A stretch of 64,000 nt of DNA from an uncultured Bacteroides sp. (GTDB taxonomy: Bacteria; Bacteroidota; Bacteroidia; Bacteroidales; Bacteroidaceae). Made by a program: the position numbers and the translations under genes. The notes under the pieces were generated by a model. That model was not told where the DNA came from, searched no databases, and saw only the letters and a program-made list of their open reading frames with translations. Positions 11,325 through 38,520 of this stretch are shown here, piece by piece (positions within the stretch are counted from its first letter, which is position 1; every line of letters begins with the position of its first letter). The stretch is from positions 3,481,946 through 3,545,945 of the forward strand of contig NZ_OY780936.1 of the NCBI RefSeq assembly GCF_963675905.1, written 5' to 3'.

Positions 11325-11402
11325 CTTGTACAAAAGAAAAATTTCTTCTGTACAAATGAATTAATTGTTCTGTACAAGAGAATTTATTCTTTTGTACAAG
11401 AA
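11325..11402. repeat. Four-unit TGTACA array, 22-bp period
   Basis: TGTACA begins at 11327, 11349, 11371 and 11393, exactly 22 bp apart. Spacer bases are A/T-rich and partly symmetrical (for example GAATTAATTGTTC). The reverse complement of the array at 38.4 kb aligns along its whole length without gaps. It lies between the candidate small RNA and the CTAG element. Confidence 0.8.
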
Positions 11403-11490
11403 TACAAAAAGATTATGCCGGTTAATTAAAAACACCCAGAAGAAAAGAACTTCGCCATGGCTTAGATAAAAAGTTAGAGTTGTGAATTAG

Positions 11491-11597
11491 CGCTAGATCG
11501 CTAGATCACCGCTAGATTAAATTAAATTGATCTAGCACCCTTTTTGTGTTTATTATCAGATAGTTATATGCCTACCGCTAGATTGCTAGATCAATTT
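11491..11597 (+). repeat. CTAG element, copy A
   Basis: Six CTAG cores start at 11493, 11501, 11512, 11532, 11578 and 11586 (steps 8, 11, 20, 46, 8). Five are GCTAGATC/T and the fourth is the reverse, GATCTAGC. The element at 37.5 kb is its reverse complement with identical steps, including an exact 21-base match at 11577-11597 against 37524-37544. The rest of the 10940-11801 intergenic stretch contains no gene that I can support. Confidence 0.8.
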
Positions 11598-11764
11598 GCA
11601 AAAAAAAAGTTTTTTGAGGAGACTTATTTTTAAAATAACCAGGATTCTTTAAAGCTAGTTTTATGTTTAGAGAGCTTATTTAACTCCCATATTAAAATTG
11701 AAACAGAGTCTCTTCTTATTTGTTTTTTAATTTATTGATTGTGCTGAAATGCAGATTAAATTTG

Positions 11765-11772
11765 TATTTTTG
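11765..11772 (+). promoter_or_regulatory. Candidate -7 box for VIT1-type transporter
   Basis: TATTTTTG, 29 bases before the ATG; an overlapping TAAATTTG lies just upstream. Confidence 0.45.
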
Positions 11773-11801
11773 TTTATAGAATAAAATTTAACTCGAATAC
11801 A

Positions 11802-12674
11802 ATGGATATTGATGGAAAAATAAAAAAAGAATTTATTCGTTTTCAACGAAATGAAATAACTGAGAGCCTTGTTTATTCCCGTCTGGCTTCTATTGAGAAA
11901 GATGGTTCAAACAAGGAAATTCTTTTGAATATTGCTGCAGATGAGATTGCTCATGGAAAAGTCTTTCAGAAATATACAAAAGAAAATCCTATCCCTGACC
12001 GATGGAAGATATTCAAATATTATTGGTTAGCTCGTTTATTTGGATTGACTTTTGCTTTAAAATTGATGGAGTCTGGCGAATCAAATGCTCACAAAAACTA
12101 TGACCGATATGAAAGTTTCCCGGAATTACTTCGCCTTGGCCGTGAGGAAGAAGAGCATGAAAAGAAACTTATTGGTCTGATTAATGAAGAACGGCTGGAA
12201 TATATGGGTTCGGTTGTACTAGGATTAAATGATGCCCTGGTAGAGTTTACCGGTGCATTAGCCGGATTTACACTTGCTTTAAGCGATTCCAAGCTTATAG
12301 CGCTAACCGGAAGTATTACCGGTATTGCTGCTGCTCTTTCTATGGCTTCATCCGAATATCTTTCTACAAAATCAGAAGACAGTAATGAAAAGCATCCTGT
12401 TAAGGCGGCCATCTATACAGGTTTTGCTTATGTTGTTACAGTAGTTGCTTTGGTTCTACCTTTTATAATATGTGCCAATGTTTTGGTTGCACTTGGAATT
12501 ATGCTTGTTGCAGCATTAATGATAATTGCGATATTTAATTATTATTATTCTGTAGCCAAAAGTGAAAGCTTTAAAAAACGATTTATGGAAATGGCATTAT
12601 TGAGTTTTGGGGTTGCTTCAATTAGTTTCTTTATAGGCTATTTATTGAAAAAGTTTACAGGTATTGAAGTTTAA
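11802..12674 (+). CDS. Ferritin-like/VIT1-CCC1 metal transporter (MbfA-like)
   Basis: 290 aa in two parts. Residues 1-130 form a rubrerythrin/ferritin-like four-helix region with E-x-x-H iron-ligand motifs (DEIAHGK and EEEEHEKK). Residues about 140-290 are the VIT1/CCC1 membrane domain, with LGLNDALVEFTGALAGF and SMASSEYLSTKSE. Proteins of this build, such as MbfA, export Fe or Mn from the cytoplasm, with the ferritin-like part thought to bind the metal. It is monocistronic. The specificity for iron or manganese is inferred. Confidence 0.88.
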   Translation: MDIDGKIKKEFIRFQRNEITESLVYSRLASIEKDGSNKEILLNIAADEIAHGKVFQKYTKENPIPDRWKIFKYYWLARLFGLTFALKLMESGESNAHKNYDRYESFPELLRLGREEEEHEKKLIGLINEERLEYMGSVVLGLNDALVEFTGALAGFTLALSDSKLIALTGSITGIAAALSMASSEYLSTKSEDSNEKHPVKAAIYTGFAYVVTVVALVLPFIICANVLVALGIMLVAALMIIAIFNYYYSVAKSESFKKRFMEMALLSFGVASISFFIGYLLKKFTGIEV

Positions 12675-12782
12675 TCAATTTAAATGCCATTTTTATTCTT
12701 TTTAATGTTAAAGTATGCAACTTTAGTGCTTTGATTGATTAATTAATCTGCTATTTTGTAATGTTGATATTGCAATTATATG

Positions 12783-12790
12783 TAATTTTG
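12783..12790 (+). promoter_or_regulatory. Candidate -7 box for pta operon
   Basis: TAATTTTG, 54 bases before the pta ATG. Confidence 0.5.
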
Positions 12791-12844
12791 CAAAGTGAAA
12801 GTTGATTGCTCCGATATCAGAACATATAAATATATTATTCAATC

Positions 12845-13852
12845 ATGGATTTAATTAATGAAATTATTGCGCGGGCGAAAGCTGATCGTCAGCGAATTGT
12901 CCTTCCTGAAGGAACGGAAGAACGTACTTTAAAGGCTGCCGATCTAGTTTTGGCAGATGGAGTTGCTGATATTATTCTTTTAGGTAACCCTGAAGAGATT
13001 AAAAAGTTGGCTGCTGAATGGGGACTAAAGAACATTGATAAGGCAACAATTATCGATCCTGCTAACCATGCAAAGAAGGAACAGTATGCTGAATTGCTAT
13101 GTGAACTTCGCAAGAAAAAGGGTATGACTATTGAAGATGCTCGTAAACTTGTTCTTGATCCGCTGTATTTAGGATGTCTTATCATTAAGAGTAATGATGC
13201 AGATGGTCAGTTGGCTGGTGCTCAAAATACAACTGGTGATGTTCTTCGCCCTGCATTACAAATTATTAAAACAGCTCCAGGTATGAGCGTAGTATCTGGT
13301 AGCATGTTGCTTATAACTAAAGCTCCTGAATATGGTAAGGATGGTCTTTTGGTGATTGCAGATGTTGCTGTTTTACCAAACCCAACTGCAGAAGAACTTG
13401 CTCAGATTGCCGTAGCTACAGGTAGAACTGCCCGCGTGCTCGCAAACGTTGAACCAAAGGTTGCTATGCTAAGTTTCTCAACTAAAGGAAGTGCAAAACA
13501 TGAAATGGTTGATAAAGTTGCTGAAGCTACACGTTTAGCTAAAGAATTAGCTCCTGATATGCTTATCGATGGTGAACTTCAGGCTGATGCAGCTCTTGTT
13601 CCTTCTGTTGGAAATAGCAAAGCTCCGGGAAGTGCAGTTGCCGGACAAGCAAATACTTTGGTTTTCCCTTCTTTAGAGGTAGGTAATATTGCTTATAAGA
13701 TGGTTCAACGTCTAGGTGGTGCTGAAGCTGTTGGTCCTATTCTTCAAGGAATGGCTGCTCCTGTTAACGATCTTTCTCGTGGTTGTTCAATTGAAGATAT
13801 CTATAGAATGATTGCAATTACTGCTAATCAGGCTATTGGAGCAAAAAAATAA
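12845..13852 (+). CDS. pta: Phosphate acetyltransferase
   Basis: Interconverts acetyl-CoA and acetyl phosphate in the acetate branch of fermentation; cytoplasmic. The 335-aa short (Pta-only) form begins MDLINEIIARAKADRQRIVLP. It contains PEGTEERTLKAADL, the core TKGSAKHEMVDKV and the conserved PSVGNSKAPGSAVAGQANTLVFP. The gene starts an operon with a dehydrogenase-like gene 18 bp downstream and then ackA. Confidence 0.96.
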   Translation: MDLINEIIARAKADRQRIVLPEGTEERTLKAADLVLADGVADIILLGNPEEIKKLAAEWGLKNIDKATIIDPANHAKKEQYAELLCELRKKKGMTIEDARKLVLDPLYLGCLIIKSNDADGQLAGAQNTTGDVLRPALQIIKTAPGMSVVSGSMLLITKAPEYGKDGLLVIADVAVLPNPTAEELAQIAVATGRTARVLANVEPKVAMLSFSTKGSAKHEMVDKVAEATRLAKELAPDMLIDGELQADAALVPSVGNSKAPGSAVAGQANTLVFPSLEVGNIAYKMVQRLGGAEAVGPILQGMAAPVNDLSRGCSIEDIYRMIAITANQAIGAKK

Positions 13853-13870
13853 TTAAAAGAATTTAAAGGT

Positions 13871-14842
13871 ATGGCTGAAATGATTAAAGAACCAATAGAG
13901 AACTACGGACTAAGTTCTAAAGACCGTAAAAAGACTTTGTTCTCTAAAATTGGTATCGTAGGCTGCGGAAAGGAAGGCTCTAAAATAGCTACTGTAGCTG
14001 CTACGGCTGGTATTGAGGTAGTATTTCTTGAAATCAGTGATGAGAAAATTGAAGCAGCATTCGATAGAATTGCTGGTGAATTAGACATGCGTATTGCCAC
14101 ATGGGGTCTTACTGAGACAGAAAAGAAAACTATTCTTGGACGTATCTCGGGAACATTAACTTTTGATTCATTAAAGGACTGTGATTTTGTAATCGAAGCA
14201 GTACGCTATGATGAAAACGGAGAAAGAAGTTTGAATCACCGCAAAGAAATCTTCCTGAATTTGGAGGCTGTTTTAGCTGAAGATGCTATTATAGCAACAA
14301 ATGCTTCTTCTGTTGTAATTACAGAATTAGCCTCTGAACTTAAACATAAAGAGCGCTGTGTGTGTTTACACTTTGTAATAATGCAGCCTCAAAGCCGTGT
14401 AATGGAGATTGTTCGCGGACTTTATACTTCGGATGATTGTTACAAGAAGGTTTGTCAGTTTGCTAAACTGATTAGCTATGATTATGTAACCGTAGAAGAA
14501 TCAGCCGGTTTGATTTGTAACCGTATGTTTTTTATTCTGCTAAATGAAGCTTGTGCAATTCTTCAGGAAGGGTTAACGACCCCAATTGAGATTGATTCTA
14601 TCATAAAGTTTGGTTTGGGACAACGTCAGGGAGTCTTCTGTATGGCCGATCAAATGGGAATTGAGAAAATTGTTCCTCAAATGGAAGACCTTTACAAAGA
14701 ATTTGGCTCTTTGAAATATAAACCATCTCCACTGTTACTTCGATTAAATCGTGCTAAGCATTGGGGAGTTCGTACCGGTATGGGTTTCTATGCTTATGAC
14801 AAAGAAGGAAACCGTATGATTAATGAGAACGAGAAAAAATAA
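13871..14842 (+). CDS. 3-hydroxyacyl-CoA dehydrogenase-like protein inside the pta-ackA operon
   Basis: 323 aa, two-domain HAD fold. The Rossmann motif is GIVGCGKEG with Glu at the end of the second strand (VVFLEIS), pointing to NAD. The active-site Ser (NASS), His (LHF) and the Glu twelve residues after the His are present, as is the later Asn in ICNRMF. The Asn-Pro that normally follows His-Phe-Phe is Ile-Met here (HFVIMQP), so one substrate-contact residue is missing. It is cotranscribed between pta (18 bp) and ackA (6 bp). It may act on a short acyl-CoA or have a changed role; the usual beta-oxidation or butyrate genes are not nearby. Confidence 0.85.
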   Translation: MAEMIKEPIENYGLSSKDRKKTLFSKIGIVGCGKEGSKIATVAATAGIEVVFLEISDEKIEAAFDRIAGELDMRIATWGLTETEKKTILGRISGTLTFDSLKDCDFVIEAVRYDENGERSLNHRKEIFLNLEAVLAEDAIIATNASSVVITELASELKHKERCVCLHFVIMQPQSRVMEIVRGLYTSDDCYKKVCQFAKLISYDYVTVEESAGLICNRMFFILLNEACAILQEGLTTPIEIDSIIKFGLGQRQGVFCMADQMGIEKIVPQMEDLYKEFGSLKYKPSPLLLRLNRAKHWGVRTGMGFYAYDKEGNRMINENEKK

Positions 14843-14848
14843 GGAACT

Positions 14849-16051
14849 ATGAAAATATTAGTACTCAACTGCGGTAGCTCATCCATCAAGTATAAGTTGT
14901 TCAATATGGACACAAAGGAAGTGATGGCCCAAGGTGGAATTGAGAAAATTGGATTAAAGGGATCCTTTCTTAAACTGACTCTTCCTAGCGGAGATAAGGT
15001 TATGCTGGAAGGAGAAATATTGGAACATACAGCAGGTATTGAATATATTCTTGGCGTTTTAGTCAGTGAAAAATATGGTTGTATCAAGTCATTGGATGAG
15101 ATCAATGCTGTGGGACACAGAGTTGTACACGGAGGAGAAAAATTCAATAAGTCAGTATTGATTACTGATCAGGTGATTGAAAAGATTGTAGAATGTATTG
15201 ATATTGCTCCACTTCACAATCCACCTAACTTGAAAGGTATTCGTGCTGTTTCGGATTTAATGCCAAATGCACCTCAGATTGCTGTCTTTGATACAGCTTT
15301 CCACCAGACTATGCCTGATTATGCTTATATGTATGGTATTCCTTATCAGCTTTATAAGAAATATGGTATCCGTCGTTATGGTTTCCATGGAACTAGTCAT
15401 CGTTATGTTTCAAAACGTGTATGTGACTACCTTGGTATTTCTCAGGAAGGACAACGTATCATTACTTGTCACATAGGTAACGGTGGATCTGTAGCTGCTA
15501 TTAAAGATGGTAAATCTATGGATACTTCAATGGGATTTACTCCTGTAGAAGGTTTATTGATGGGAACTCGTGCCGGAGATATTGATGCCGGAGTTGTTTC
15601 TTATATCATGGATAAAGAGATGATTGGTACTTCTTCTATTTCAACCTTACTTAACAAACATAGTGGTGTTTTAGGAGTATCCGGAATTTCCAGCGATATG
15701 CGCGAACTAGAGGCTGCTTATGAAGCAGGTGATGAACGTGCAATTCTTGCTGAAGAGATGTATTTTTACCGCATTAAGAAGTACATTGGTGCTTATGCAG
15801 CTGCTTTGGGTGGTGTTGACATCATTGTATTTACAGGTGGTGTTGGTGAAAACCAGGCATCATGTCGTTCAGGCGCTTGCCGTGGACTTGAATTTATGGG
15901 AATTTCTTTGAATGAAGAATTAAACAACAAAGTTCGTGGTGAAGAAGTGATTATCAGCAAACCTGACTCAAAAGTGAAGGTTCTTATAATTCCTACTGAT
16001 GAAGAGTTTATGATTGCTTCAGATACTATGCAAATATTGGAAGGCGAATAG
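14849..16051 (+). CDS. ackA: Acetate kinase
   Basis: Forms ATP and acetate from acetyl phosphate and ADP, the energy-yielding end of the pathway begun by Pta. The 400-aa length is typical. It has the nucleotide-fold start MKILVLNCGSSSIKYKLF, the catalytic segment DTAFHQTMP and the signature RRYGFHGTSHRYV. GNGGSVAAI and VFTGGVGEN follow. It lies 6 bp after the dehydrogenase-like gene and ends before a bidirectional terminator. Confidence 0.97.
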   Translation: MKILVLNCGSSSIKYKLFNMDTKEVMAQGGIEKIGLKGSFLKLTLPSGDKVMLEGEILEHTAGIEYILGVLVSEKYGCIKSLDEINAVGHRVVHGGEKFNKSVLITDQVIEKIVECIDIAPLHNPPNLKGIRAVSDLMPNAPQIAVFDTAFHQTMPDYAYMYGIPYQLYKKYGIRRYGFHGTSHRYVSKRVCDYLGISQEGQRIITCHIGNGGSVAAIKDGKSMDTSMGFTPVEGLLMGTRAGDIDAGVVSYIMDKEMIGTSSISTLLNKHSGVLGVSGISSDMRELEAAYEAGDERAILAEEMYFYRIKKYIGAYAAALGGVDIIVFTGGVGENQASCRSGACRGLEFMGISLNEELNNKVRGEEVIISKPDSKVKVLIIPTDEEFMIASDTMQILEGE

Positions 16052-16076
16052 TAAGAAGCGTTCTATATATAAGAGA

Positions 16077-16111
16077 AAAGAGGTATAGTCTTTAATGAAC
16101 TATACCTCTTT
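16077..16111. terminator. Bidirectional terminator between ackA and the ROK kinase
   Basis: AAAGAGGTATAGT (16077-16089) and ACTATACCTCTTT (16099-16111) are a perfect 13-bp inverted repeat with A/T runs on both sides, between two convergent genes. Confidence 0.8.
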
Positions 16112-16133
16112 TTCTATAAAAGATAATTTTTTA

Positions 16134-17114
16134 TTATTTTAAATCCTTAACTTCCCAACCAAGAGCACTTGCTCCCAGAACAGCAGCATCGGAATCTTTA
16201 AGTTCTGAAACAAGAAGCTTAGTTTTTCCTTTAAAGATGTTCAGAACATGTTCATTAAGTGCTTTCTCAACAGGTTTCATGATGTAATCGCCAGATTTTG
16301 CTAATCCACCAAATAAAACGATAGCTTCTGGGCTTGAGAAAGCAACAAAATCAGCTAATGCTTCACCTAATAAGTGACCAGTAAATTCGAAAATTTCCTG
16401 AGCTAACTTATCACCTTTTTCTGCAGCATCAAATACATCTTTTGATGAAATTTCTTCAGCAGGAATATTACGCAATAAACTTTGGTCTGAGCGAGCAATT
16501 AAAAATTCACGAGCTGTACGGGCTACACCTGTTGCAGAACAATAAGTTTCCAAACATCCTTTACGTCCGCAACCACACATTCTACCATTTTCGCGGCGTA
16601 CGATAGTGTGTCCAAGTTCACCGGCAAAGCCATCATGTCCATAAACCATCTGTCCGTTAATAACAATTCCGCTACCAACTCCGGTTCCAAGAGTAATCAT
16701 GATAAAATCTTTCATTCCGCGAGCTGCACCATAAGTCATTTCGCCAATAGCAGCTGCATTAGCATCGTTTGTTAAAGCTGTAGGAATACCAATTTTTTGT
16801 TCAAACAATTCTGCCAAATGAATAACACCTTTCCAAGGAAGATTTGGAGCAAACTCAATAGTTCCACTATAATAGTTTCCATTTGGAGCTCCAACTCCTA
16901 TACCTTTTATCTTTTCAACTCCACCTTCTGATTCAATAAGAGGAAGCAGTTTTGCACAAACAGCATCAACGTAATCCTCAACTTTTTCAAAAGATTGAGT
17001 CTTTACGGAATCGCTGCACAAAATAGTACCACGTGCATCTACAATACCAAAAACGGAATTAGTTCCACCTATATCAATGCCTACAACGTAGGGCTTTTCC
17101 ATACCTGAGATCAT
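16134..17114 (-). CDS. ROK-family sugar kinase (probable glucokinase)
   Basis: 326 aa. N-terminal ATP-binding motif GIDIGGTNSVFGIVD, then NLPWKG and TNDANAAAIGEM, with the catalytic Asp in the latter. The ROK zinc motif CGCGRKGCLETY and the acidic GELGHT are present. It phosphorylates glucose or a related hexose in the cytoplasm; the specificity cannot be fixed from sequence. An in-frame ATG at 17102 gives a start MEKPYVVG that may be the true one. It is monocistronic and divergent from the exporter operon. Confidence 0.9.
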   Translation of the reverse strand: MISGMEKPYVVGIDIGGTNSVFGIVDARGTILCSDSVKTQSFEKVEDYVDAVCAKLLPLIESEGGVEKIKGIGVGAPNGNYYSGTIEFAPNLPWKGVIHLAELFEQKIGIPTALTNDANAAAIGEMTYGAARGMKDFIMITLGTGVGSGIVINGQMVYGHDGFAGELGHTIVRRENGRMCGCGRKGCLETYCSATGVARTAREFLIARSDQSLLRNIPAEEISSKDVFDAAEKGDKLAQEIFEFTGHLLGEALADFVAFSSPEAIVLFGGLAKSGDYIMKPVEKALNEHVLNIFKGKTKLLVSELKDSDAAVLGASALGWEVKDLK

Positions 17115-17267
17115 TATTTTTTTGTTTAAAGGGTTAATAACTAATCTACAAATTACGCAAAGTTGATTGATTTTACAAAATATTTTTTTAATTTTCTTTT
17201 GTTGAACTGCAACTTTTAGTACTACTCTTGCGTCTAATACTAAAAACGTTGATTAAACATCTTAAAA

Positions 17268-17984
17268 ATGATACATTTAGAAGACATTAACAAGACTTAT
17301 CACAACGGAGCTCCTCTTCACGTCCTTAAAGGTATAAATCTGGACATAGATCGTGGGGAGTTTGTTTCCATTATGGGTGCTTCTGGTTCCGGAAAATCAA
17401 CCCTGCTTAATATTCTCGGTATTTTGGATAATTATGATACTGGGAATTATTATCTCAATGATGTTCTGATGAAGAAGCTAAGTGAAACCCGTGCTGCCGA
17501 GTATCGTAACCGGATGATTGGCTTTATTTTTCAGTCTTTTAATCTGATTTCTTTCAAAAATGCAATGGAGAATGTTGCATTGCCACTTTTTTATCAGAAT
17601 GTGAGTCGTAAGAAAAGAAATATTCTTGCAATGGAATATCTGGATAAACTGGGTTTGAAAGATTGGGCACATCATATGCCTAATGAATTATCCGGTGGTC
17701 AGAAGCAGCGTGTGGCTATTGCACGTGCATTAATATCTCAACCGCAAATTATTTTGGCAGACGAGCCGACTGGTGCTTTGGATAGTAAAACATCTGATGA
17801 GGTTATGCAGATATTAAAAGACGTAAATGATCTTGGAATGACGCTTGTTGTGGTAACTCACGAATCGGGTGTAGCAAATAGGACGAATAAGATTATCCAT
17901 ATAAAAGATGGTCTTATTGAGTCTGTAGAAGATAATTCAAATCATAATCTATCTCCATTTGGTAATGGGAAAATGATGAAGTAA
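17268..17984 (+). CDS. ABC transporter ATP-binding protein, MacB/LolD type
   Basis: 238 aa. Walker A GASGSGKST, Q-loop FIFQSFNLI, signature LSGGQKQR and Walker B IILADEPTGALD with a downstream switch His (VVTHE). It belongs to the subfamily that energises MacB-like mechanotransmission pumps. First gene of a five-gene set with two permeases, a membrane-fusion protein and a TolC-like channel; the gap to the first permease is 3 bp. Confidence 0.94.
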   Translation: MIHLEDINKTYHNGAPLHVLKGINLDIDRGEFVSIMGASGSGKSTLLNILGILDNYDTGNYYLNDVLMKKLSETRAAEYRNRMIGFIFQSFNLISFKNAMENVALPLFYQNVSRKKRNILAMEYLDKLGLKDWAHHMPNELSGGQKQRVAIARALISQPQIILADEPTGALDSKTSDEVMQILKDVNDLGMTLVVVTHESGVANRTNKIIHIKDGLIESVEDNSNHNLSPFGNGKMMK

Positions 17985-17987
17985 ACC

Positions 17988-19256
17988 ATGAGAATAGGAC
18001 TTGATATATGGCAGGAAATATTGAGCACAATTAAGCAGAATAAGCTGCGAACTGTGCTTACCGGATTTTCCGTTTCATGGGGAATCTTTATGCTGATTGT
18101 TTTGTTAGGATGGGGGAATGGTATTATACATGCTTTTGAAGAATCATCTTCGGATATGGCAAAGAATTCCATTAAGATATTTCCGGGATGGACTAATAAA
18201 ACCTACGATGGTCTTGAATCTGGTAGAAGGATCAGCTTTAATAATAAGGACATAAATATCACAAAAAATAAATTCAGTGATAATGTTATTACTGCAGGCG
18301 CTACAGTTAAAAAAGAAGGCGTTAATCTTTCTTATAAAGATCAGTATGTATCCTTAGATCTAACCGGAGTGCACCCTTCTTATACAGAGATAGAACCTTG
18401 TAAACTTGATCAGAACGGTGGTCGTTTTATTAATGATATGGACATAGAACAAAGCAGAAAGGTTATTGTGATTCATTATAAAACAAGGGATGTTCTTTTT
18501 CGTAAAGAAAATGCTATAGGTAAGTTTGTAAATGCAGATGGAGTAATTTATCGGGTTGTGGGAGTGTACAGAGATAAAGGAAATCAAGACTCCCGGGCGG
18601 CATATATTCCTTTTACTGCTGCACAGACAATATATAATAAAGCGGATACATTAAATAATATCATATTTACTACTCGTGGACTGAATACTGAAAAAGCGAA
18701 TAAGGATTTTGAATTGGAATACCGTAAAGCACTTGGAACTTCGCACCGTTTTGATCCTACAGATATGGGTGCTATGTATATCTGGAACCGTTTTACGCAA
18801 TACTTGCAACAGATGACTGCAAAGAATATTCTCACAACGGCTGTCTGGATAATTGGTATATTTACTTTGCTTAGCGGTATTGTTGGTGTAAGTAACATAA
18901 TGCTTATAACGGTAAAAGAACGTACCCGGGAAATTGGAATAAGAAAGGCGTTGGGTGCTTCTCCTGCATCGGTATTATGGCTCATTATTCTTGAAAGTAT
19001 ACTAATAACAACGATTTTCGGATATATTGGGATGGTAGCAGGAATTGGAGTTACAGAGTATATGAATGCTGTTGAAGGAGCAAAAACCTTTGGCATGGGA
19101 GATATGCAAATGACTGTGTACAAAGATCCTACTGTAGATCTTAGTGTGGCAATAAAAGCTACATTAACTTTGATTATTGCCGGAACTTTTGCGGGATTCT
19201 TCCCGGCACGTAAAGCTGTTAAGATTAGACCAATTGAAGCATTAAGAGCAGAATAA
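17988..19256 (+). CDS. MacB-type ABC permease
   Basis: 422 aa. One N-terminal membrane helix (LRTVLTGFSVSWGIFMLIVLL), a large periplasmic MacB_PCD domain, then three C-terminal helices of the FtsX fold. The signature VGVSNIMLITVKERTREIGIRKALGASP lies before the last helices, and the protein ends PARKAVKIRPIEALRAE. It pairs with the sister permease 2 bp downstream; both probably share the upstream ATPase as a heterodimer. Confidence 0.93.
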   Translation: MRIGLDIWQEILSTIKQNKLRTVLTGFSVSWGIFMLIVLLGWGNGIIHAFEESSSDMAKNSIKIFPGWTNKTYDGLESGRRISFNNKDINITKNKFSDNVITAGATVKKEGVNLSYKDQYVSLDLTGVHPSYTEIEPCKLDQNGGRFINDMDIEQSRKVIVIHYKTRDVLFRKENAIGKFVNADGVIYRVVGVYRDKGNQDSRAAYIPFTAAQTIYNKADTLNNIIFTTRGLNTEKANKDFELEYRKALGTSHRFDPTDMGAMYIWNRFTQYLQQMTAKNILTTAVWIIGIFTLLSGIVGVSNIMLITVKERTREIGIRKALGASPASVLWLIILESILITTIFGYIGMVAGIGVTEYMNAVEGAKTFGMGDMQMTVYKDPTVDLSVAIKATLTLIIAGTFAGFFPARKAVKIRPIEALRAE

Positions 19257-19258
19257 TT

Positions 19259-20503: not shown

Positions 20504-20536
20504 TAAAATGATAATAACAATACAAATAATACGTAT

Positions 20537-29390: not shown

Positions 29391-29403
29391 TATAAGGAAT
29401 TTA

Positions 29404-30408: not shown

Positions 30409-30423
30409 ATGAATTGTATTTTA

Positions 30424-31086
30424 TCAGGCGTATTTTACAAGAATTGTAGTGATAACCTTTCCTGTACTATTGATCTTATTTACAGCTTTTTCAAGTTCCT
30501 GAATAATTTCTTTCAATTTTATAAGCTCTACAGCACTATAAGAATTATTTGTTGCTCCCTTGAAAAGACTCATAATAGCTTCTTCATATACAACGTCTGC
30601 TTCTTCTTCTAATCTTTTAATCTCTTTGCAGTGAGCGCGAAGACGAAGATCTGTCTTTTTAATGTTTGATAATTCATTAGCAGCATTCAGAATTTCGTTG
30701 CTACCTTTTTTGATAATTTCAACCAAAGTAATAGTGTGTTGAGGGAAACTTGTTGGTTGATAAAGTAGTACTTTTTGAGCACAACGGTTAATTGTGTCAA
30801 TAACATCATCCATAACATCAGCAAGGGCATGAACATCTTCCCTGTCAAAAGGAGTAATGAATGTGTTGTTTAATTCATGGATAATGCTCCCGGTAACTTT
30901 GTCACCTTTAACTTCTTCTGCTTTAATAAGTTTGCACAGTTCATTTCTGCGCTCTGCATTTTCACAAGAAAAAAGTTCCTGAAGATAGGTTGAAGACTGG
31001 GAGAGGACACTGGCTGTTTCTTCCAACATGGGGAAAAACTTAACATCTTTTGGAGCAAACATGCTCAATAAAGTATTAATTTTCAT
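30424..31086 (-). CDS. DUF47/PhoU-like Pit accessory protein
   Basis: 220 aa, all-helical, PhoU-like DUF47 protein. Conserved acidic motifs include EEVKGDKVTGSIIHELN, FDREDVHALADVMDDVID and EEEADVVYEEA, which in the fold bind metal clusters. DUF47 proteins are encoded next to Pit transporters and modulate phosphate uptake. First gene of the three-gene minus-strand operon, 15 bp before pit. Confidence 0.92.
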   Translation of the reverse strand: MKINTLLSMFAPKDVKFFPMLEETASVLSQSSTYLQELFSCENAERRNELCKLIKAEEVKGDKVTGSIIHELNNTFITPFDREDVHALADVMDDVIDTINRCAQKVLLYQPTSFPQHTITLVEIIKKGSNEILNAANELSNIKKTDLRLRAHCKEIKRLEEEADVVYEEAIMSLFKGATNNSYSAVELIKLKEIIQELEKAVNKINSTGKVITTILVKYA

Positions 31087-31109
31087 TGGTAGTCTATATT
31101 ATTTCGAGT

Positions 31110-31117
31110 GCAAATAT
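31110..31117 (-). promoter_or_regulatory. Candidate -7 box for DUF47-pit-cvfB
   Basis: TATATTTG on the minus strand, 23 bases upstream of the DUF47 ATG. Confidence 0.5.
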
Positions 31118-31350
31118 AGAATAATCAAATTATTCATGCAATAGTATTTAACTATTTATATTCAAAATAAATGCAGCAGAAAAAACATGTAAAACAAATG
31201 TTATTGTATTTATTATCTGGATGTCCTATCAGAATATGTCTCTAAAAAATGTGTATATCAAAAATAGTAAAGATATTGAATTTTATAAATAATGCTTAAA
31301 TAATACTTATGAAATAGTTCTGCTCTTGTAATATCTCTTTTGAGTGTTGA

Positions 31351-31449
31351 AATGTATATAAGAGTAGGTTACGTCAACGGTTGGATTCGGATGCATATAT
31401 GGAAAATGAAGATGAAAGTGGAGATCTGTTTTATTGGTCTAAAAAGTAG
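31351..31449 (+). pseudogene. Possible remnant of a coding region
   Basis: Between a TGA at 31348 and a TAG at 31447 one frame reads SRLRQRLDSDAYMENED and ends DLFYWSKK. There is no start codon with a ribosome-binding site, and the composition (acidic, aromatic end) looks like a protein C-terminus. This could equally be chance. Confidence 0.15.
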
Positions 31450-31473
31450 TAATATAAGAGGTTGAAAACAGAA

Positions 31474-31507
31474 AGTAGGAAGAAAACGAAGGTGTCTTCT
31501 TCCTACT
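31474..31507 (-). terminator. Terminator of the outer-membrane barrel gene
   Basis: AGTAGGAAGAA (31474-31484) and TTCTTCCTACT (31497-31507), perfect 11-bp stem; T-rich on the minus strand beyond it. Confidence 0.7.
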
Positions 31508-31518
31508 CGATATTTTAT

Positions 31519-32196
31519 TCAATTAAAAAACTCTTTTTTCCAAAGTCTGGCTCCAATTCTGATCACAGGAGATAAGTCTATATTAGGAATATTGTATTTT
31601 GTTCCGTTGAAATCAAGCTGCTTGTCACCTCTCAGATAAACATGCATTGCTGGCTGAACATATAAATAACGGCCGATAAAGAACTGATATCCTATACCTG
31701 CTCCTAAATCGGTACTATGCAGATTCTGCTTTAGACCAGTACTTTTCTGTTCAATTTCGAAAGTATGTAGTTCGGCGTATGTGTATATTTCGAGATTCTT
31801 CCACACATTGTATCCTAAAAATAAACCTGGAGAAGTTTTGTAGTATCTTTTAAATTCTGACGATGAATTATTTATTCCGGCAGTTTCGGCGTTGTAACTT
31901 CCTCCGTTTATAACACTTGCTCTCACACGAAATTTTTTATAGCGGTAACCAACTCCAACATGAAATCCTCCTGTAATAAACATCGGGAACAAACTCTCAA
32001 CTTCAAATGCCTGGTTTACATCATAACTTTTTTGTTTTGTTTCTTTACAACACCCAATTTGTAAAGTTTGGCGTTCATAGTTTGCATCATAACTCTTTTG
32101 TTTTGGTTCGGCAGGTTGTTGCTCAGCAGTGGTTTGAGCAAAGATTTGTGAGACTACAAATAATAAACATGCCAGTAATAAAGTAATTCTTTTCAT
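31519..32196 (-). CDS. Outer-membrane beta-barrel protein
   Basis: 225 aa from the ATG at 32194-32196, which opens a signal peptide (MKRITLLLACLLFVVSQIFAQ). Residues 70-225 show alternating strands of a porin-like small barrel (GGFHVGVGYRYKKFRVRA, then DLGAGIGYQFFIGRYLYVQPA). The mature N-terminus contains a short duplication, KQKSYD repeated about 24 residues apart around a Cys-Cys pair. Function unknown. It lies downstream of the Crp-like gene on the same strand. Confidence 0.75.
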   Translation of the reverse strand: MKRITLLLACLLFVVSQIFAQTTAEQQPAEPKQKSYDANYERQTLQIGCCKETKQKSYDVNQAFEVESLFPMFITGGFHVGVGYRYKKFRVRASVINGGSYNAETAGINNSSSEFKRYYKTSPGLFLGYNVWKNLEIYTYAELHTFEIEQKSTGLKQNLHSTDLGAGIGYQFFIGRYLYVQPAMHVYLRGDKQLDFNGTKYNIPNIDLSPVIRIGARLWKKEFFN

Positions 32197-32288
32197 AATC
32201 TTGATATTTGCTAATTTTGTTTTCTGATGCAAATATCAGGAGATATAACAGAATCATTACTCCGCATTTGTTACCAAATCATTATTAC

Positions 32289-32840
32289 TCAAAAAGAATT
32301 TCTTATGCGGCTAAGTGACTTGGGAGCAATTCCAAGATAATTAGCTATATGATATAAGGGCAACCTTTGAAAAATCTCCGGATAGTTTTTTAGTAACTTT
32401 TCATAGCGTTCTTTTGCAGGAAGTATCTGCAAATCAATGCTAAGCTGAACCAACTTTACGAATGCCTGTTCCATGAGAATCCTCCCAAACCGTTCAAGCT
32501 TAGGCATTCTTTTATATAAGTATTCCAGATCTTTGCTTTTAATTATCAATACTTCAGAATCCTCAATGGCTTTGATGTAGAGATGAGACGGAGAATTGTT
32601 TAACCGGCTGTGGTTATTAGTAATCCATTCCCCTTCAACGGCAAAGTCTGTAGTCTTTTCATCCGCATTATCCAGTATTTTGTAATAGATAAATAAACCA
32701 TAGTTTATAAAGGCTATCGAGTCACACACGTTTCCTTCTATAAGGAAAAACTCATTTTTCTTTAAATGCCTGATTTCAATAAAATTATTTAGCAAAGACC
32801 ATTCTTCGTCATTGAGATCAATGACAGAAACTATAAACAT
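32289..32840 (-). CDS. Crp/Fnr-family transcriptional regulator
   Basis: 183 aa from ATG 32838-32840. Residues 20-110 are a cyclic-nucleotide-binding-like beta barrel (EFFLIEGNVCDSIAFINYGLFIYY). The C-terminal HTH is short (LPLYHIANYLGIAPKSLSRIRN), the form found in many Bacteroidetes members. Ligand unknown. A longer frame from 32906 begins upstream of the -7 box at 32894 and is rejected. The palindrome between -33 and -7 may be its own operator. It may control the barrel gene downstream. Confidence 0.87.
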   Translation of the reverse strand: MFIVSVIDLNDEEWSLLNNFIEIRHLKKNEFFLIEGNVCDSIAFINYGLFIYYKILDNADEKTTDFAVEGEWITNNHSRLNNSPSHLYIKAIEDSEVLIIKSKDLEYLYKRMPKLERFGRILMEQAFVKLVQLSIDLQILPAKERYEKLLKNYPEIFQRLPLYHIANYLGIAPKSLSRIRNSF

Positions 32841-32893
32841 CCTTATTTTATCAGTCTCTTTCAAATTCCGAAATAAATTGTTACTAATAATAA

Positions 32894-32916
32894 CAAAAGT
32901 ACTCATTTTAAATGAG
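32894..32916 (-). promoter_or_regulatory. Crp-like gene promoter with overlapping palindrome
   Basis: -7 box TACTTTTG on the minus strand at 32894-32901. A 15-base near-perfect palindrome CTCATTTTAAATGAG follows at 32902-32916, immediately upstream of it, in a position suited to repression. Confidence 0.4.
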
Positions 32917-33068
32917 CCAGATATAAATACCTGGTTTTTAATTTCTAGACAGAGTAAATTATAGATGCCAAAACGAAATTGCTTTTAAATATGTCTGAAT
33001 GCACTATCTTTTACGTCAGATTCCCACTATTTGAATAATTATTCCCAATGGTCAATCTGTTAATGAAC

Positions 33069-33076
33069 TATTTTTG
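33069..33076 (+). promoter_or_regulatory. Candidate -7 box for GH28 gene
   Basis: TATTTTTG, 97 bases before the ATG at 33174; implies a leader of about 90 bases. Confidence 0.4.
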
Positions 33077-33173
33077 CAGTAATCTTAGTAAGATGGGTAT
33101 CTCTTTAGTCTTTACCCGGAAAAATGTGAATTTATTCATAAGCAAGACGTTTAATCAAATTATATATAGTGTT

Positions 33174-34631
33174 ATGAAGAAAATATTTGTATTTGCAATT
33201 TTAATATCCAGTTTGTTAACTGCGTTTAGTCAGGAAGTGCCTACAAGCAGCCAGGTTGGTGCATTAAAACTACCAGATACAATTGCTCAAATTGTAGCTC
33301 CTTTCGAAATGCCAAAGTTGGTAAAACCTGAATTTCCTGATCGAACAATTAATATAGAAAGTGTAGGGGCTCAACAAAATAAGCTTTGCACAAATATCAT
33401 CCAGAAAGCAATAAATAAATTGAGTAGTAAAGGTGGGGGCACAGTTGTTGTCCCTGCCGGCCAATGGCTTACCGGACGTATAATTCTGAAGAGTAATGTA
33501 AACCTGCATCTGGATAAAGATGCCGAACTTCACTTTAGTGGTGATATAAAAGATTGTTTGCCAGTTGTGTTTACAAGAAATGAAGGTATAGAGCTATATT
33601 CGTTAGGAGCATTTATTTATGCTAACGGAGCAACAAATATTGCTTTAACCGGACAAGGGAAATTAGTAGGTCCTTCACGTGATTGTGAAATTCTTAAGAA
33701 ACAAATGGAAGGTGTGGTAATCGAGAAATACATATCAACTCCGGTTGAGAAGCGAATTTTTGATGGAAAGGATGGAAAACCTGTATTTCTTCCAATGTTC
33801 TTTGCGCCGATGAACTGTAAAAACGTTTTTGTTGAAGGAGTAACCTTTGAGAAAACACTTTTCTGGAACGTGGTACCACAGTATTGCGAGAATGTAATTA
33901 TACGTGGCATTACAGTAAACAGCGTAGGTATATTCAGAAGTGATGGTATAGATATAGACTCTTCAAAGAATATTCTGGTAGAATATTGTACGCTTGATTG
34001 TGGCGATGATTGTTTTACTCTAAAGTCCGGTCGTTGCGAAGATGGATTGCGGGTTAATAAACCATCCGAGAATATTATAATCCGTTATTGCCTGGCTAAA
34101 CGGGGAGGTGGATCAGTAACTTGCGGAAGTGAAACTGCAGGAATGATAAGGAATATGTATGTACACGACTGCGTGTTTGATGGTACCAAAAATGGAATTC
34201 TTTTTAAAACACGACGCAATCGTGGTGGAGGAGGAGAGAACCTCTACTATGAACGTATTCGTCTGAATATACCCGGACCGGCTATTAAATGGGATATGCT
34301 TGGATCAAGTATGCATGTTGGTGAATTGGCTAACCGCTTGCCTGCTCGTAGTATAACTCCATTGACTCCATCATACAAGAATATTTTTATGAAGGATATT
34401 GTAATAGAGAACTGCGATAAATTTATCCGTGCAATAGGTATACCTGAAAAAAAGATTTCTAATGTAGTTATTGAAAACTGCAATGTTTCCTCAAAAGCAC
34501 TTGTCGAAATCTCGGATGTTGACGGATTTGTAGTAAAGAATACTCAGATTAAAACAAACAATAGTGCAATGAATATTGCTGGTGCTAATAATATTATTTG
34601 GGATAACGTAAAGATTACAACTAAAGATTAG
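33174..34631 (+). CDS. GH28 polygalacturonase-family glycoside hydrolase
   Basis: 485 aa from the ATG at 33174, which begins a signal peptide (MKKIFVFAILISSLLTAFSQ); a frame extending to 33048 would bury it. Right-handed beta-helix of family GH28: GGGTVVVPAGQWLTGRI at the start, SDGIDIDSS, catalytic DD in CGDDCFTLKSG, GSVTCGSET and the ILFKTRRNRGGG segment. It hydrolyses galacturonan or rhamnogalacturonan in the periplasm or at the surface. No susCD pair is adjacent, so this pectinase stands alone. Confidence 0.92.
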   Translation: MKKIFVFAILISSLLTAFSQEVPTSSQVGALKLPDTIAQIVAPFEMPKLVKPEFPDRTINIESVGAQQNKLCTNIIQKAINKLSSKGGGTVVVPAGQWLTGRIILKSNVNLHLDKDAELHFSGDIKDCLPVVFTRNEGIELYSLGAFIYANGATNIALTGQGKLVGPSRDCEILKKQMEGVVIEKYISTPVEKRIFDGKDGKPVFLPMFFAPMNCKNVFVEGVTFEKTLFWNVVPQYCENVIIRGITVNSVGIFRSDGIDIDSSKNILVEYCTLDCGDDCFTLKSGRCEDGLRVNKPSENIIIRYCLAKRGGGSVTCGSETAGMIRNMYVHDCVFDGTKNGILFKTRRNRGGGGENLYYERIRLNIPGPAIKWDMLGSSMHVGELANRLPARSITPLTPSYKNIFMKDIVIENCDKFIRAIGIPEKKISNVVIENCNVSSKALVEISDVDGFVVKNTQIKTNNSAMNIAGANNIIWDNVKITTKD

Positions 34632-34655
34632 GCTAAAGCCGATAGTTGTATTTTT

Positions 34656-34739
34656 AAAAATAGCCGGTGCATATGATCTGATCCCAGAAGCTCTTGTCTA
34701 ACTTTTTGGGTTCATTTCAGTATACGCTCGGCTATTTTT
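34656..34739. terminator. Long-armed bidirectional terminator or structured RNA
   Basis: AAAAATAGCCG (34656-34666) pairs with CGGCTATTTTT (34729-34739). Adjacent GTGCATA (34667-34673) pairs with TATACGC (34721-34727) with one mismatch and one G-T pair. An inner CCCA/TGGG is possible. The enclosed loop of about 47 bases is long for a terminator. It sits between convergent GH28 and tnaA. Confidence 0.55.
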
Positions 34740-34759
34740 ATTATAAAGTATGATATTCT

Positions 34760-36136
34760 CTATTGAGCCCTTTTCAACTTTACGGTAAAGTGTCTCATTA
34801 ATTCAGCTTCCCATTCAATTTCCATTCCTTTGGTGATTGACTCCCTGCGGTCGAAAACATTCTTAAGAGCCACTGCTACAACATCCATGTGATTATTTGT
34901 ATAAACACGCCGGGGAATAGCCAGTCGCAGTAAGTCAAGTCCGTTGAAACGGTTCTTCCGGGTTACCGGATCTCTGTCTGCCAGAATATAACCAATTTCA
35001 CATCCTCGTATACCTGCTTCCAGGTAAAGTTCTACTGCTAATGTCTGAGCAGGAAATTGCTCTTTCGGAACATGAGTCAGCACTTTGGGAGCATCTACAA
35101 AAATTGCATGTCCACCAGCCGGACGTTGGTAAGGAATACCATATTCATCCAGCTTCTTGCCCAGATATTCCACCTGCTTAATGCGAGTTTCCAGATTATC
35201 GAACTCAGTATTTTCATCAAGCCCCACAGCCAAAGCATTCATATCACGTCCGTTCATGCCACCGTAAGTAATGTATCCTTCAAAGATTATATTCTTAACC
35301 TTGGCAGCATCGTACCACTCCTGCACATTCGTGGCAATAAAACCACCCATGTTAACAATGGCATCCTTTTTGGCACTCATAGTCATTCCATCGGCATAAG
35401 AGAACATCTCCAGGCAAATCTCCTTAATGCTCTTTCCGGCATATCCCTCTTCACGGGTTTTGATAAAGTATGCATTCTCGGCAAAACGTGCTGAGTCGAT
35501 AATCACCTTTTTGCCATATTTGTCAGCCAAAGCTTTTGTTTCGCGAAGATTCTGCATAGAAACCGGCTGACCACCGGAAGTGTTATTTGTACAAGTCATA
35601 ATGATAAACGGCACCCTGCAGCCATCCTTCTTAAGAACAGCCTCCAGTTTGTTGATATCTACATTTCCTTTGAAAGGTATTTCCAGCTGAGTATCTTTTG
35701 CTTCATCAATTGTACAATCAACTGCAAACGCTTTTCTCATTTCAATATGTCCCTTCGTTGTATCAAAATGTGAGTTACCCGGACAAACATCTCCCTCTTT
35801 TATCAGGCAGGAGAATAAAACATTCTCTGCAGCTCTTCCTTGATGCGTGGGCAGCACATATTCAAATCCTGTAATTCGGGTTATGGCCTCTTTCATATTA
35901 TAAAAAGAAGATGCTCCCGCATAACTTTCATCGCCCAGCATCATTGCCGACCATTGTCTGTCGCTCATCGCTCCTGTGCCGGAATCAGTGAGTAAATCAA
36001 TATATACCTGGTCAGCGTTTAGTTGAAAAACATTATAGTGTGCCTCCTTCATCCATTGTTCGCGTTCTTCGCGGGTACTCTTTCTGATAGGTTCAATCAT
36101 TTTAATCTTCCATGATTCTGCAAATGGTAATTCCAT
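34760..36136 (-). CDS. tnaA: Tryptophanase
   Basis: 458 aa, PLP-dependent lyase that splits L-tryptophan to indole, pyruvate and ammonia in the cytoplasm. Family motifs: SDRQWSAMMLGDESYAGA, the PLP-facing THQGRAAENVLF and MTCTNNTSGGQPVS. The Lys that binds PLP is in DGMTMSAKKDAIVNMGG, and RLAIPRRVYT lies near the C-terminus. No tryptophan permease is adjacent. The 389-bp leader contains a palindrome and a short frame (see findings), and no TnaC-like peptide was recognised. Confidence 0.95.
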   Translation of the reverse strand: MELPFAESWKIKMIEPIRKSTREEREQWMKEAHYNVFQLNADQVYIDLLTDSGTGAMSDRQWSAMMLGDESYAGASSFYNMKEAITRITGFEYVLPTHQGRAAENVLFSCLIKEGDVCPGNSHFDTTKGHIEMRKAFAVDCTIDEAKDTQLEIPFKGNVDINKLEAVLKKDGCRVPFIIMTCTNNTSGGQPVSMQNLRETKALADKYGKKVIIDSARFAENAYFIKTREEGYAGKSIKEICLEMFSYADGMTMSAKKDAIVNMGGFIATNVQEWYDAAKVKNIIFEGYITYGGMNGRDMNALAVGLDENTEFDNLETRIKQVEYLGKKLDEYGIPYQRPAGGHAIFVDAPKVLTHVPKEQFPAQTLAVELYLEAGIRGCEIGYILADRDPVTRKNRFNGLDLLRLAIPRRVYTNNHMDVVAVALKNVFDRRESITKGMEIEWEAELMRHFTVKLKRAQ

Positions 36137-36525
36137 AAATGTATTTTTTGTGTTTTAGAAAAGATAATAGCAACTCAAGCCAGCTATCATTAATAGTTAT
36201 GATAACCGGCAATTCAATTTTTTAAAATAAGGCATTAAAGAGTTGGGATAAAGTGATCTCTATCCTTTACATTCAGGAATACTAATTGGTAGATGAAGCT
36301 AAAAGAATCTTTCGAATCCATAGGTCTTAATTAGTTCTGTTTCGGGTATAAAAATATACTATTTATTGTTATTTCGCAATAATTAAAGTGCAAAATAAAT
36401 ATTCAAGGTTTAATAAGGTGAAATGCTAACATTATAAAAATGTAGTTATCTGACTATTTATTCCAAAAGAACCATTTTCTTATAATTAATTGTATATTTG
36501 CGCTTATCAATCAATATTTAAGATA
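36137..36525. other. tnaA-tag intergenic region
   Basis: 389 bp between divergent genes. An imperfect palindrome with core TATCAT/ATGATA lies about 36180-36212. A 28-codon frame on the minus strand occupies 36235-36321. The tag promoter is at 36493. No RNA gene or riboswitch recognised. Confidence 0.5.
36493..36500 (+). promoter_or_regulatory. Candidate -7 box for tag
   Basis: TATATTTG, 25 bases before the ATG at 36526, and overlapping a spurious upstream in-frame start at 36490. Confidence 0.5.
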
Positions 36526-37104
36526 ATGGAACAAAACATTGAAATACAACGGTGTGGATGGTGTGGCACTGATCCTTTATATGTGCAGTATCATGATGAA
36601 GAGTGGGGACGTGAAGTTACTGACGACCATAAGATGTTTGAGTTTCTTGTTTTAGAGAGTTCTCAGGCAGGATTAAGCTGGAGCACTATCCTGAAAAAAC
36701 GCGAGAACTATCGTAAAGCGTTTGCCGATTTTGATGTGCAGAAAGTTGCTCAGTTTACAACGGAAGACGTTGACCGATTGATGCAGGATTCCAGTATTAT
36801 CCGTAATAAACTGAAGATAACATCTACCATATCCAATGCCCGCTGCTATATTGAAGTTCAAAAAGAGTTTGGCAGTTTCTGTAGCTATTTAAAGAACTTC
36901 TTGCCGGAAGGAAAGCCAATTATGAACCATTGGACTTCATTAGATCAGATTCCTGCCTCCACAGAATTATCAGATGTTATCAGCAAGGATATGAAAAAGC
37001 GTGGATTCAAATTCTTTGGAACAACAATTTGTTATGCGCATTTACAAGCTGTAGGGTATGTAAATGATCATTTAGAAGATTGTCATTACAAATTCAAAGA
37101 CTAA
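36526..37104 (+). CDS. tag: DNA-3-methyladenine glycosylase I
   Basis: 192 aa. Removes 3-methyladenine from alkylated DNA. The start RCGWCGTDPLYVQYHDEEWG carries the first zinc ligands and the catalytic acidic residues, and the C-terminal CYAHLQAVGYVNDHLEDC carries the remaining His and Cys ligands. LESSQAGLSWSTILKKRENYRKAF is the helix-hairpin-helix region. The start at 36526 follows the -7 box; a frame from 36490 begins inside the promoter. A small membrane protein gene follows after 37 bp. Confidence 0.94.
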   Translation: MEQNIEIQRCGWCGTDPLYVQYHDEEWGREVTDDHKMFEFLVLESSQAGLSWSTILKKRENYRKAFADFDVQKVAQFTTEDVDRLMQDSSIIRNKLKITSTISNARCYIEVQKEFGSFCSYLKNFLPEGKPIMNHWTSLDQIPASTELSDVISKDMKKRGFKFFGTTICYAHLQAVGYVNDHLEDCHYKFKD

Positions 37105-37141
37105 TCTTCAGCCGTTAGAATTTAGATACATCATTTAGAAT

Positions 37142-37486
37142 ATGCAATATCTTACTAAACTATCATTTATTAAAAACAGACTATTCTCTTTACTATCAAT
37201 ACTATTAAGCGTTATTTCGCTGATTGCTGTAATAAAGATTAATAGAGATATCTCTGCCCGGTATTTAGCATTAGATGGGAAGACTCAACTTTTGCTGGGG
37301 CTAACTGAATTTGTAGGCTTTTATTTTAAATTTTATATTGTAATAGCCGTCAGCTTGGTTGCTATGGGGCTGTCTATTATAGCATTAAGAAAGGAAGAGG
37401 AGAGAAGATATCGTTTAATTGCTTTTCTTCTGGGGATACTTTCGGTTATTGTTGTAATTCTGAATATAGGTAGATTTATGATGTAG
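37142..37486 (+). CDS. Hypothetical membrane protein
   Basis: 114 aa with three hydrophobic segments (about residues 12-30, 55-78 and 92-112) separated by charged loops. No family recognised. It lies 37 bp downstream of tag and may share its transcript. Its codon use looks like that of its neighbours. Confidence 0.6.
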   Translation: MQYLTKLSFIKNRLFSLLSILLSVISLIAVIKINRDISARYLALDGKTQLLLGLTEFVGFYFKFYIVIAVSLVAMGLSIIALRKEEERRYRLIAFLLGILSVIVVILNIGRFMM

Positions 37487-37523
37487 AACTTTTATTATCT
37501 TCTCTCAGAAAAATAAAAACACG

Positions 37524-37630
37524 AAATTGATCTAGCAATCTAGCAGTATACCCTTAAGTGTTTGTATACTAACACTGTATAGGTGCTAGATCAAATTATT
37601 TTGTTCTAGCGGTAATCTAGCAATCTAGCA
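37524..37630 (-). repeat. CTAG element, copy B (inverted)
   Basis: CTAG cores start at 37532, 37540, 37586, 37606, 37617 and 37625 (steps 8, 46, 20, 11, 8), the exact mirror of copy A at 11.5 kb. The reverse complement aligns with copy A without gaps. The outer and middle site clusters are conserved, and the bases between sites 4 and 5 (the 46-bp step) have drifted. Confidence 0.8.
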
Positions 37631-37685
37631 CTATGGCTCTGTCATCTTTTTTGTAAATTAGATGTCTTTTGTTATAAAATATTCA

Positions 37686-37693
37686 TATATTTG
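37686..37693 (+). promoter_or_regulatory. Candidate -7 box for the interrupted lipoprotein gene
   Basis: TATATTTG, 46 bases before the ATG at 37740. Confidence 0.45.
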
Positions 37694-37739
37694 CATTTCG
37701 ATATATTTATGAATATGTAGAACTAAAGTTGATTTAATA

Positions 37740-38339
37740 ATGAAGAGAAAAAATTATGGATCATGGATTATGCTAGCCGTCTGTGTTATAGGTTTTTATT
37801 CTTGCGGCGATTAACAAGAGGAGGAAATTAGTGTTAACGATTTTACCGGATATTATAAAATTACGTCCTTGAAGGCTGATATTAGCGTAGATCTTAATAA
37901 CGATGGATTACAATCTTCTGACTTGTATAATGAAATGACTGAACCTTATTATTTGGCGAATCCGAGAGATCCTGATTATACTCCCCTGCCAATGTATAAC
38001 TTCAATCAGATAAGCAGTTGTGCAGAAGTGCGCCCTACGGAGAGTCAGAGTACAAGCATTAAATTACTATTATTAAATTTGCCGTACCAGTACATAGCTT
38101 ATTCTAGTCTGTTAATGTATGTACACGACTTATCGTATTATTTTTATGATCTGGATGAAAATGACAATGTAGTATTGAAAGAAAAACTTGGAGATACACC
38201 AGAAGTGCAGGTTACAGAACTGGAACGATTGGATAAAGATAATTTTAAGGTAATTTATAATGCCCGAATTTATGATTTTGTATCCAAAGAATGGAAAGAA
38301 ACTTCTGTTAAAGCCCTTTATGAGCGCACCTCTATATGA
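37740..38339 (+). pseudogene. Lipoprotein gene interrupted by an in-frame TAA
   Basis: The ATG at 37740 opens MKRKNYGSWIMLAVCVIGFY followed by SCGD, a complete lipoprotein signal with Cys22-type lipobox. Then TAA (37812-37814) stops the frame at codon 25. The same frame continues QEEEISVNDFTGYYKI and onward without another stop to 38339, 175 more codons of ordinary composition. One base change from CAA, GAA or AAA explains the stop. No alternative start with a signal peptide exists downstream, so the C-terminal part cannot be exported on its own. Family not recognised. A sequencing error or true decay are both possible. Confidence 0.8.
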
Positions 38340-38435
38340 TCATAGTGTGACTCTTTAGATAGACTTTAATCTGAAAGCCGGACGGATATTTTATAACTTC
38401 CCGTTATCTTTTTATTTTTACCGGAATAAAATTTA

Positions 38436-38520
38436 TGCTTGCTTGTACAAAAGATTGTTTTCTTTTGTACAGAACAATTAATTCTTTTGTACAGAAGAAT
38501 GAAATCTTTTGTACAAGAGT
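38436..38520. repeat. Four-unit TGTACA array, 22-bp period (inverted relative to 11.3 kb)
   Basis: TGTACA begins at 38444, 38466, 38488 and 38510, exactly 22 bp apart. Its reverse complement aligns with the 11.3-kb array over the full length, with shared spacer words such as GAATTAATTGTTC. The remaining intergenic bases between 38340 and 38706 hold only the terminator at 38657. Confidence 0.8.

Follow-up and report, generated by a model that had tools for sequence, protein, structure and literature searches.

IHF is a sequence-specific member of the DNABII proteins, and in the MatP-matS, Noc and SlmA systems tens of protein sites are dispersed over one chromosome. Dispersal is also a property of REP/BIME repeats, which are intergenic and somewhat few in divergent regions. 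We know of no four-site operator array with a 22-bp period for HU or IHF. HU has been described as binding DNA without sequence specificity (PMC5683647). The HU protein PG0121 of P. gingivalis was studied on a 77-bp inverted repeat, where its binding was largely non-discriminating (PMC3969353). Pairs of TGTACA are bound by the LitR/CarH regulator PmlR2 (PMC9758184).

The window, which is the whole 64,000-nucleotide stretch of an uncultured Bacteroides sp. genome (here G000) that was analysed, contains arrays of TGTACA sites. An earlier note on this DNA had reported eight such sites stepping by exactly 22 bp, and all eight were confirmed to the base (Table 1). TGTACA-N16-TGTACA pairs occurred 8 times in the window, versus 0 in 100 dinucleotide shuffles. 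The description of the two arrays as a near-identical inverted pair proved to be overstated: they agree at 61 of 72 bases in inverted alignment and at 57 of 72 in direct alignment, which is almost as good because each array is nearly palindromic, and they are just two of 54 arrays of the same kind. The earlier note was right that these are not CRISPRs, since the array spacers share one grammar, with the consensus RAASAWTnnAWTSTTY, instead of being unrelated to each other.

A third array in the window, with three sites and other arms, was absent from the earlier note (second-type array, Table 1); a similar array is carried by Bacteroides luti DSM 26991 (L156). In addition, GCTAGATC repeats adjoin array 1 (window 11488-11590), and similar repeats were seen beside several other G000 arrays.

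Table 1. Coordinates of the window arrays, of the reach of their flanking AT rhythm, and of one further array in G000
Feature	Position	Strand	Description
Array 1, main type	11327..11398	.	four TGTACA, 22-bp period, starts 11327/11349/11371/11393
Array 2, main type	38444..38515	.	four TGTACA, 22-bp period, starts 38444/38466/38488/38510
Second-type array	1333..1382	.	three TGTACA, 22-bp period, arms resemble HU-2 promoter array
Array 1 with ~88 bp on each side	11239..11486	.	reach of AT rhythm in pooled flanks
Array 2 with ~88 bp on each side	38356..38603	.	reach of AT rhythm in pooled flanks
Array at L087	G000 3143429-3143500		four TGTACA, 22-bp period, other arms; flanked by genes for a solute-binding protein and a transporter permease

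Arrays across the chromosome

There were 203 TGTACA-N16-TGTACA pairs in the whole G000 genome (4.17 Mb), versus 12 for a reversed control pattern, and the four-site pattern had 57 exact matches. Distances between TGTACA sites were counted in 1.63 Mb of G000, a sample that is enriched for arrays because it was fetched mostly around known array places, together with a 0.5-Mb tail. A distance of 22 bp was found 183 times, 44 bp 117 times, and 66 bp 57 times, and no other distance up to 100 bp occurred more than once. Compared with its neighbouring spacings, a comparison that the earlier note had proposed as a possible refutation, 22 bp was the only distance seen below 31 bp. In this sample TGTACA sites formed 55 quartets, four triplets, six pairs, and one group of five, which together accounted for all 57 four-site matches of the genome. 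After removal of one second-type array and one beside transporter genes (L087, Table 1), there were 54 main-type arrays, all intergenic according to gene calls from a simple longest-ORF script in which short ORFs of 72-143 aa, overlapped by 7 arrays, were excluded as genes.

The half-site pattern of the oriented arrays was GGCGGC in 24 of 53 and GGCGGG in 14 of 53. The middle spacer nearly always joined one G-type and one C-type half-site, so the arrays have a polarity, and pairing into hairpins is not conserved. Polarity was random, 23 to 22, with respect to the assumed direction of replication, for which the origin was guessed from GC skew.

The origin and terminus of G000 were only guessed, from the GC skew of partial sequence, and no bias toward the assumed terminus was found: successive 250-kb steps from it contained 10, 6, 5, 6, 5, 9, 5, and 6 arrays. 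The spacing of the arrays along the chromosome was no more even than random (p 0.11), so that any role in chromosome folding has to be inferred. Regional sites of the MatP, Noc or SlmA type were rejected as a model, as there was neither terminus enrichment or exclusion nor a spacing more even than random. Divergent gene regions contained 6 of the 54 arrays, versus 23% expected, a difference that was not significant (p 0.11), and the gene context of the arrays was mildly different from chance. A gene regulon was also rejected: the annotated neighbours of the arrays, a minority of all neighbours, were mixed housekeeping genes.

Two other kinds of repeat with this spacing were observed in G000. 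CTCCGGCCGGAGTT arrays with a 22-bp period were present at L050 and L064 (379864 and 1297515). DnaA-box-like TTATCCAC repeats with 22-bp spacing at L100 (3797676) may mark a replication origin; they lie 0.5 Mb away from the origin guessed by GC skew.

Distribution and conservation among genomes

Arrays with the main arms were found in eight of the 158 genomes of the genus, with 25-59 in each, and in none of the others when one mismatch to the pattern was allowed. When any arms were accepted, 3 of 61 genomes of the family and 2 of 392 of the phylum contained the four-site pattern, G000 being counted in each. The eight array-bearing genomes were the closest by DNA similarity at the array 1 locus among 95 genomes searched. 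Orthologs of array 1 were present in the same place in G205, G087, and B. luti, and five more distant members of the clade had no array 1 at the corresponding locus. Phage and plasmid records contained no DNA similar to the arrays, and none of the viral contigs matched the main-type pair. Two viral contigs did match the loose four-site pattern, but their repeats were unrelated. A mobile element in viruses or plasmids was rejected. More TGTACA arrays with other arms were seen at three loci of G202 (L264, L266, and L267), with no HU gene in the stretch read.

The sister species G205 had 49 exact four-site matches, in an order largely as in G000 but inverted. In 18 orthologous arrays compared between these two species, TGTACA differed at 1 of 396 aligned positions (0.25%); 13 of the 18 were places with an exact G205 array, and this biases the comparison toward conserved cores. 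Differences amounted to 2.8% in the spacer arms, 7.3% at the two centre bases, 8.1-8.5% in the flanks, and 10.1% in more distant DNA. Of the remaining five arrays, one had a substitution, two had lost 22 bp, one had lost 44 bp, and one had undergone a larger deletion. The G205 ortholog of array 2 lacked 44 bp of the array. No empty site was seen among the 18 pairs. Eight stretches were compared at places that seemed to lack an array, and two of them yielded no match. In other words, the arrays are conserved like protein sites: the cores are nearly invariant, the arms are constrained, and the spacer centres are free.

Positions were also shared with more distant genomes. Of the arrays that were read, 10 of 21 in G202 and 5 of 12 in G108 lay between orthologs of both genes that flank an array in G000, and the 8 arrays of G118 gave only one-sided neighbour-gene matches with G000. 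Array positions were common to species that are ~25% apart, as measured by divergence at one compared locus.

Outside the arrays, AT content oscillated with a period of 22.0 bp out to ~85 bp, in register with the array, in 82 G000 flanks from arrays outside the mutually similar group. The power of this rhythm was reached by 0 of 1000 circular-shift controls, and the rhythm persisted without hairpins. It was still significant in the 20 flanks with a gene within 40 bp, where the best period was 23.5, and the best periods elsewhere were 21.0 bp in G202, 19.5 bp in G108, and 22.5 bp in G118. In the window arrays taken singly the rhythm was not uniformly clear, and it was weak to the left of array 1. 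The rhythm suggests a protein-DNA complex of ~250 bp.

HU-HIG genes and the arrays before them

One G000 array, in the interval between divergent genes, is 65 bp away from a gene (HU-1) that encodes a 146-residue HU-HIG (PF18291) protein. The PF18291 score was 106.5 bits for HU-1, 68.4 bits for a second protein, HU-2, and 72.8 bits for a protein of G036, a genome from another genus (cut-off 26.2); HU-1 and the G036 protein also passed the cut-off of HU_rel TIGR01201. The structure model of HU-1 was of low confidence (mean pLDDT 68), and its top two Foldseek hits were HU-type, with E values of 1.0 and 1.3. No sequence relative was found in the PDB at E 0.01. HU-1 has a conserved RGRKP tail, which resembles an AT-hook.

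HU-1, HU-2, and the Lrp family were the only candidates compared by their distribution among genomes. Among the matches listed, HU-1 orthologs with 84-100% identity occurred in exactly the eight array-bearing genomes of 72, and the best matches in the other 64 genus genomes had at most 37% identity and 63 bits. HU-2 was restricted to the same eight genomes, among the matches listed for 69 genomes. An Lrp/AsnC octamer was rejected as the binder, as there was no extra gene: each of the eight genomes had 2 matches and the other 64 had 2-5. By itself the shared distribution of arrays and HU-1 is weak evidence, because clade-only genes are common. An array was present before the HU-1 gene in all eight genomes (8/8), with the last TGTACA 70-71 bp from the start codon; it had four sites in six genomes, three in G206, and three plus CGTACA in G108. 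This fixed place in 8/8 genomes makes it likely that the arrays are HU-1 binding sites.

Arrays with other arms preceded other HU-HIG genes. The second-type array was found before 14 of 14 full-length copies of HU-2, with sites at about -89, -67, and -45, some of which read TCTACA or TCTAGA instead or followed a 23-bp step. Its arms differed between the two paralog groups. The G036 genome contained three arrays with other arms, one of which ends 43 bp before the HU-HIG gene.

Two further sets of HU-HIG genes were then analysed for arrays, which were called when self-similarity within 400 bp upstream was best at a step of 22 or 23 bp and reached 27 or more of 44 matches. The first set was made up of 17 loci selected by similarity to HU-1: 12 in genomes without main arrays and five G000 paralogs. 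Eleven of these 17 genes had an upstream array, typically of several units round a palindrome such as TGCGCA, GATGTACATC or CACGTACGTG, and three of the six without one were mutually orthologous. For the second set, 17 plasmid records from named species each contributed one HU place; seven of these genes had such an array, and three of the ten that failed had a 21-bp step. An array before its own gene is therefore not universal in the HU-HIG family. Among control genes of G000, 6 of 821 had an upstream array (10 of 821 counting 21 bp), and at least two of these six looked like remote copies of HU paralog arrays. An earlier control sample gave 1 of 400. Of two laxer sets, one gave 8 of 500, and the other, drawn from array-centred loci in relatives, gave 15 of 354. 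Fisher tests against 6/821 gave 4e-17 for the first set and 6e-10 for the second, and against 15/354 they gave 2e-10 and 1e-5. As predicted, TGCGCA-N16-TGCGCA recurred in G000, 8 times at 4 places, one of them before an HU paralog, with 0 matches for the reversed control.

Several other features of these loci were observed. A GATGTACATC array with a 23-bp period, found upstream of one HU paralog, is repeated at a distant location (L089, G000 3222418, and L247). In the plasmid records (L271-L287), several HU genes without an upstream array sit in DUF4248-HU-smalltalk-amidase or HU-amidase neighbourhoods, and the longer HU-HIG genes tend to have an array, which suggests two subgroups. Units of ATTCACCAATAAA form a dispersed family with a 21-bp period at L069, L101, and L114 (G000 1673935, 3813160, and 4076599), possibly the arrays of yet another HU-HIG protein.

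A putative HU-HIG operator and its alternatives

Taken together, position and conservation make it likely that each main array is a site for four dimers of HU-1, which probably controls its own gene through such an array. The four dimers would line up on a single DNA face at intervals of two helical turns and would read the palindromes in the grooves. On either side the complex would extend over another ~85 bp and would bend or wrap the DNA, perhaps with the help of the RGRKP tail, and such bending or wrapping would explain the AT rhythm in the flanks. HU-1 may set its own level via its promoter array, and the complexes at the 54 intergenic places may fold or insulate the chromosome. The cooperative binding of a dimeric protein along one DNA face, as the earlier note had envisaged it, fits the cores, the arms, the spacer centres, the 22-bp steps, and the rhythm outside; its special inverted pair does not form part of this picture.

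From the genes and arrays of other paralogs we infer that many HU-HIG proteins may be sequence-specific and self-regulating, with private four-site operators, and that one such set has spread chromosome-wide here. A wider proposal, which we put forward only tentatively, is that HU-HIG proteins might be nucleoid proteins with private addresses, each paralog reading a palindrome of its own that is repeated four times with a step of two helical turns and is placed first of all before the paralog's gene. In one Bacteroides clade a paralog could have become a sequence-addressed architect of the whole chromosome, where it would build about 54 phased complexes of ~250 bp that resemble positioned bacterial nucleosomes.

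The link between HU and the arrays is one of position, distribution and analogy, and another regulator could bind the arrays, with the HU-HIG genes merely among its targets. This appears unlikely, as array types with different letters each precede an HU-HIG gene, and a single outside regulator would not be expected to match the HU paralogs in number of specificities. The arrays could also be the remains of a mobile intergenic repeat of the REP/MITE kind, with no present function. Several arrays sit in larger similar segments and the oriented arrays have one common polarity pattern, which indicates that array copies share an origin, but the sparing of the cores where the flanks change strongly disfavours such a repeat. 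Nor did the 18 orthologous pairs behave like REP or MITE copies, with whole copies drifting and empty sites or target duplications. The positions held in common by distant species and the searches of phage, plasmid, and viral sequences described above also argue against a mobile repeat, which we consider very improbable.

Least credible is a function as RNA hairpins or transcription terminators, in spite of the terminator-like hairpins that lie beside the array at some loci. The variable pair of the middle spacer base-paired in 9% of arrays versus 49% when shuffled, with values near the shuffled ones elsewhere in the array, and there was no excess of stems in the 82 flanks of mutually unrelated arrays. 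In 6 loci the only Rfam matches were tRNAs and a group II intron, and in the window they were 2 tRNAs.

If the arrays are HU-1 sites, some HU proteins would be address-specific instead of general DNA packers. Many HU-related genes of Bacteroides-type genomes have no assigned role, and matches to HU-1 numbered 1-30 per genome in 72 genomes, among the matches listed; if each such protein has its own readable operator, its targets would be predictable from sequence alone, and a histone-like family with a general packing role would become a group of regulators that can be addressed one by one. The main set would offer about 54 defined places for work on folding, insulation, and transcription, and the cultured B. 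luti carries array 1.

A search of the open-access literature found nothing on such arrays or on HU-HIG operators. HU-1, HU-2, and the G036 protein share a family with IHF and HU through their PF18291 matches, so the fold family is already known, and private arrays serving as putative HU-HIG operators are what would be new. A parallel is PG0121, also an HU protein on a palindromic region in a Bacteroidales species; it differs in having one site versus the four of the arrays here. The likeness to PmlR2 consists of TGTACA pairs; its pairs are spaced by N12, versus N16 in the arrays. The sites of MatP, Noc, and SlmA belong to another protein family, and the arrays lack a regional bias. The arrays resemble REP/BIME repeats in being dispersed, intergenic, and infrequent in divergent regions, although this last was not significant, but unlike them they have a fixed four-site 22-bp geometry, the constraint of a protein site, and no conserved pairing.
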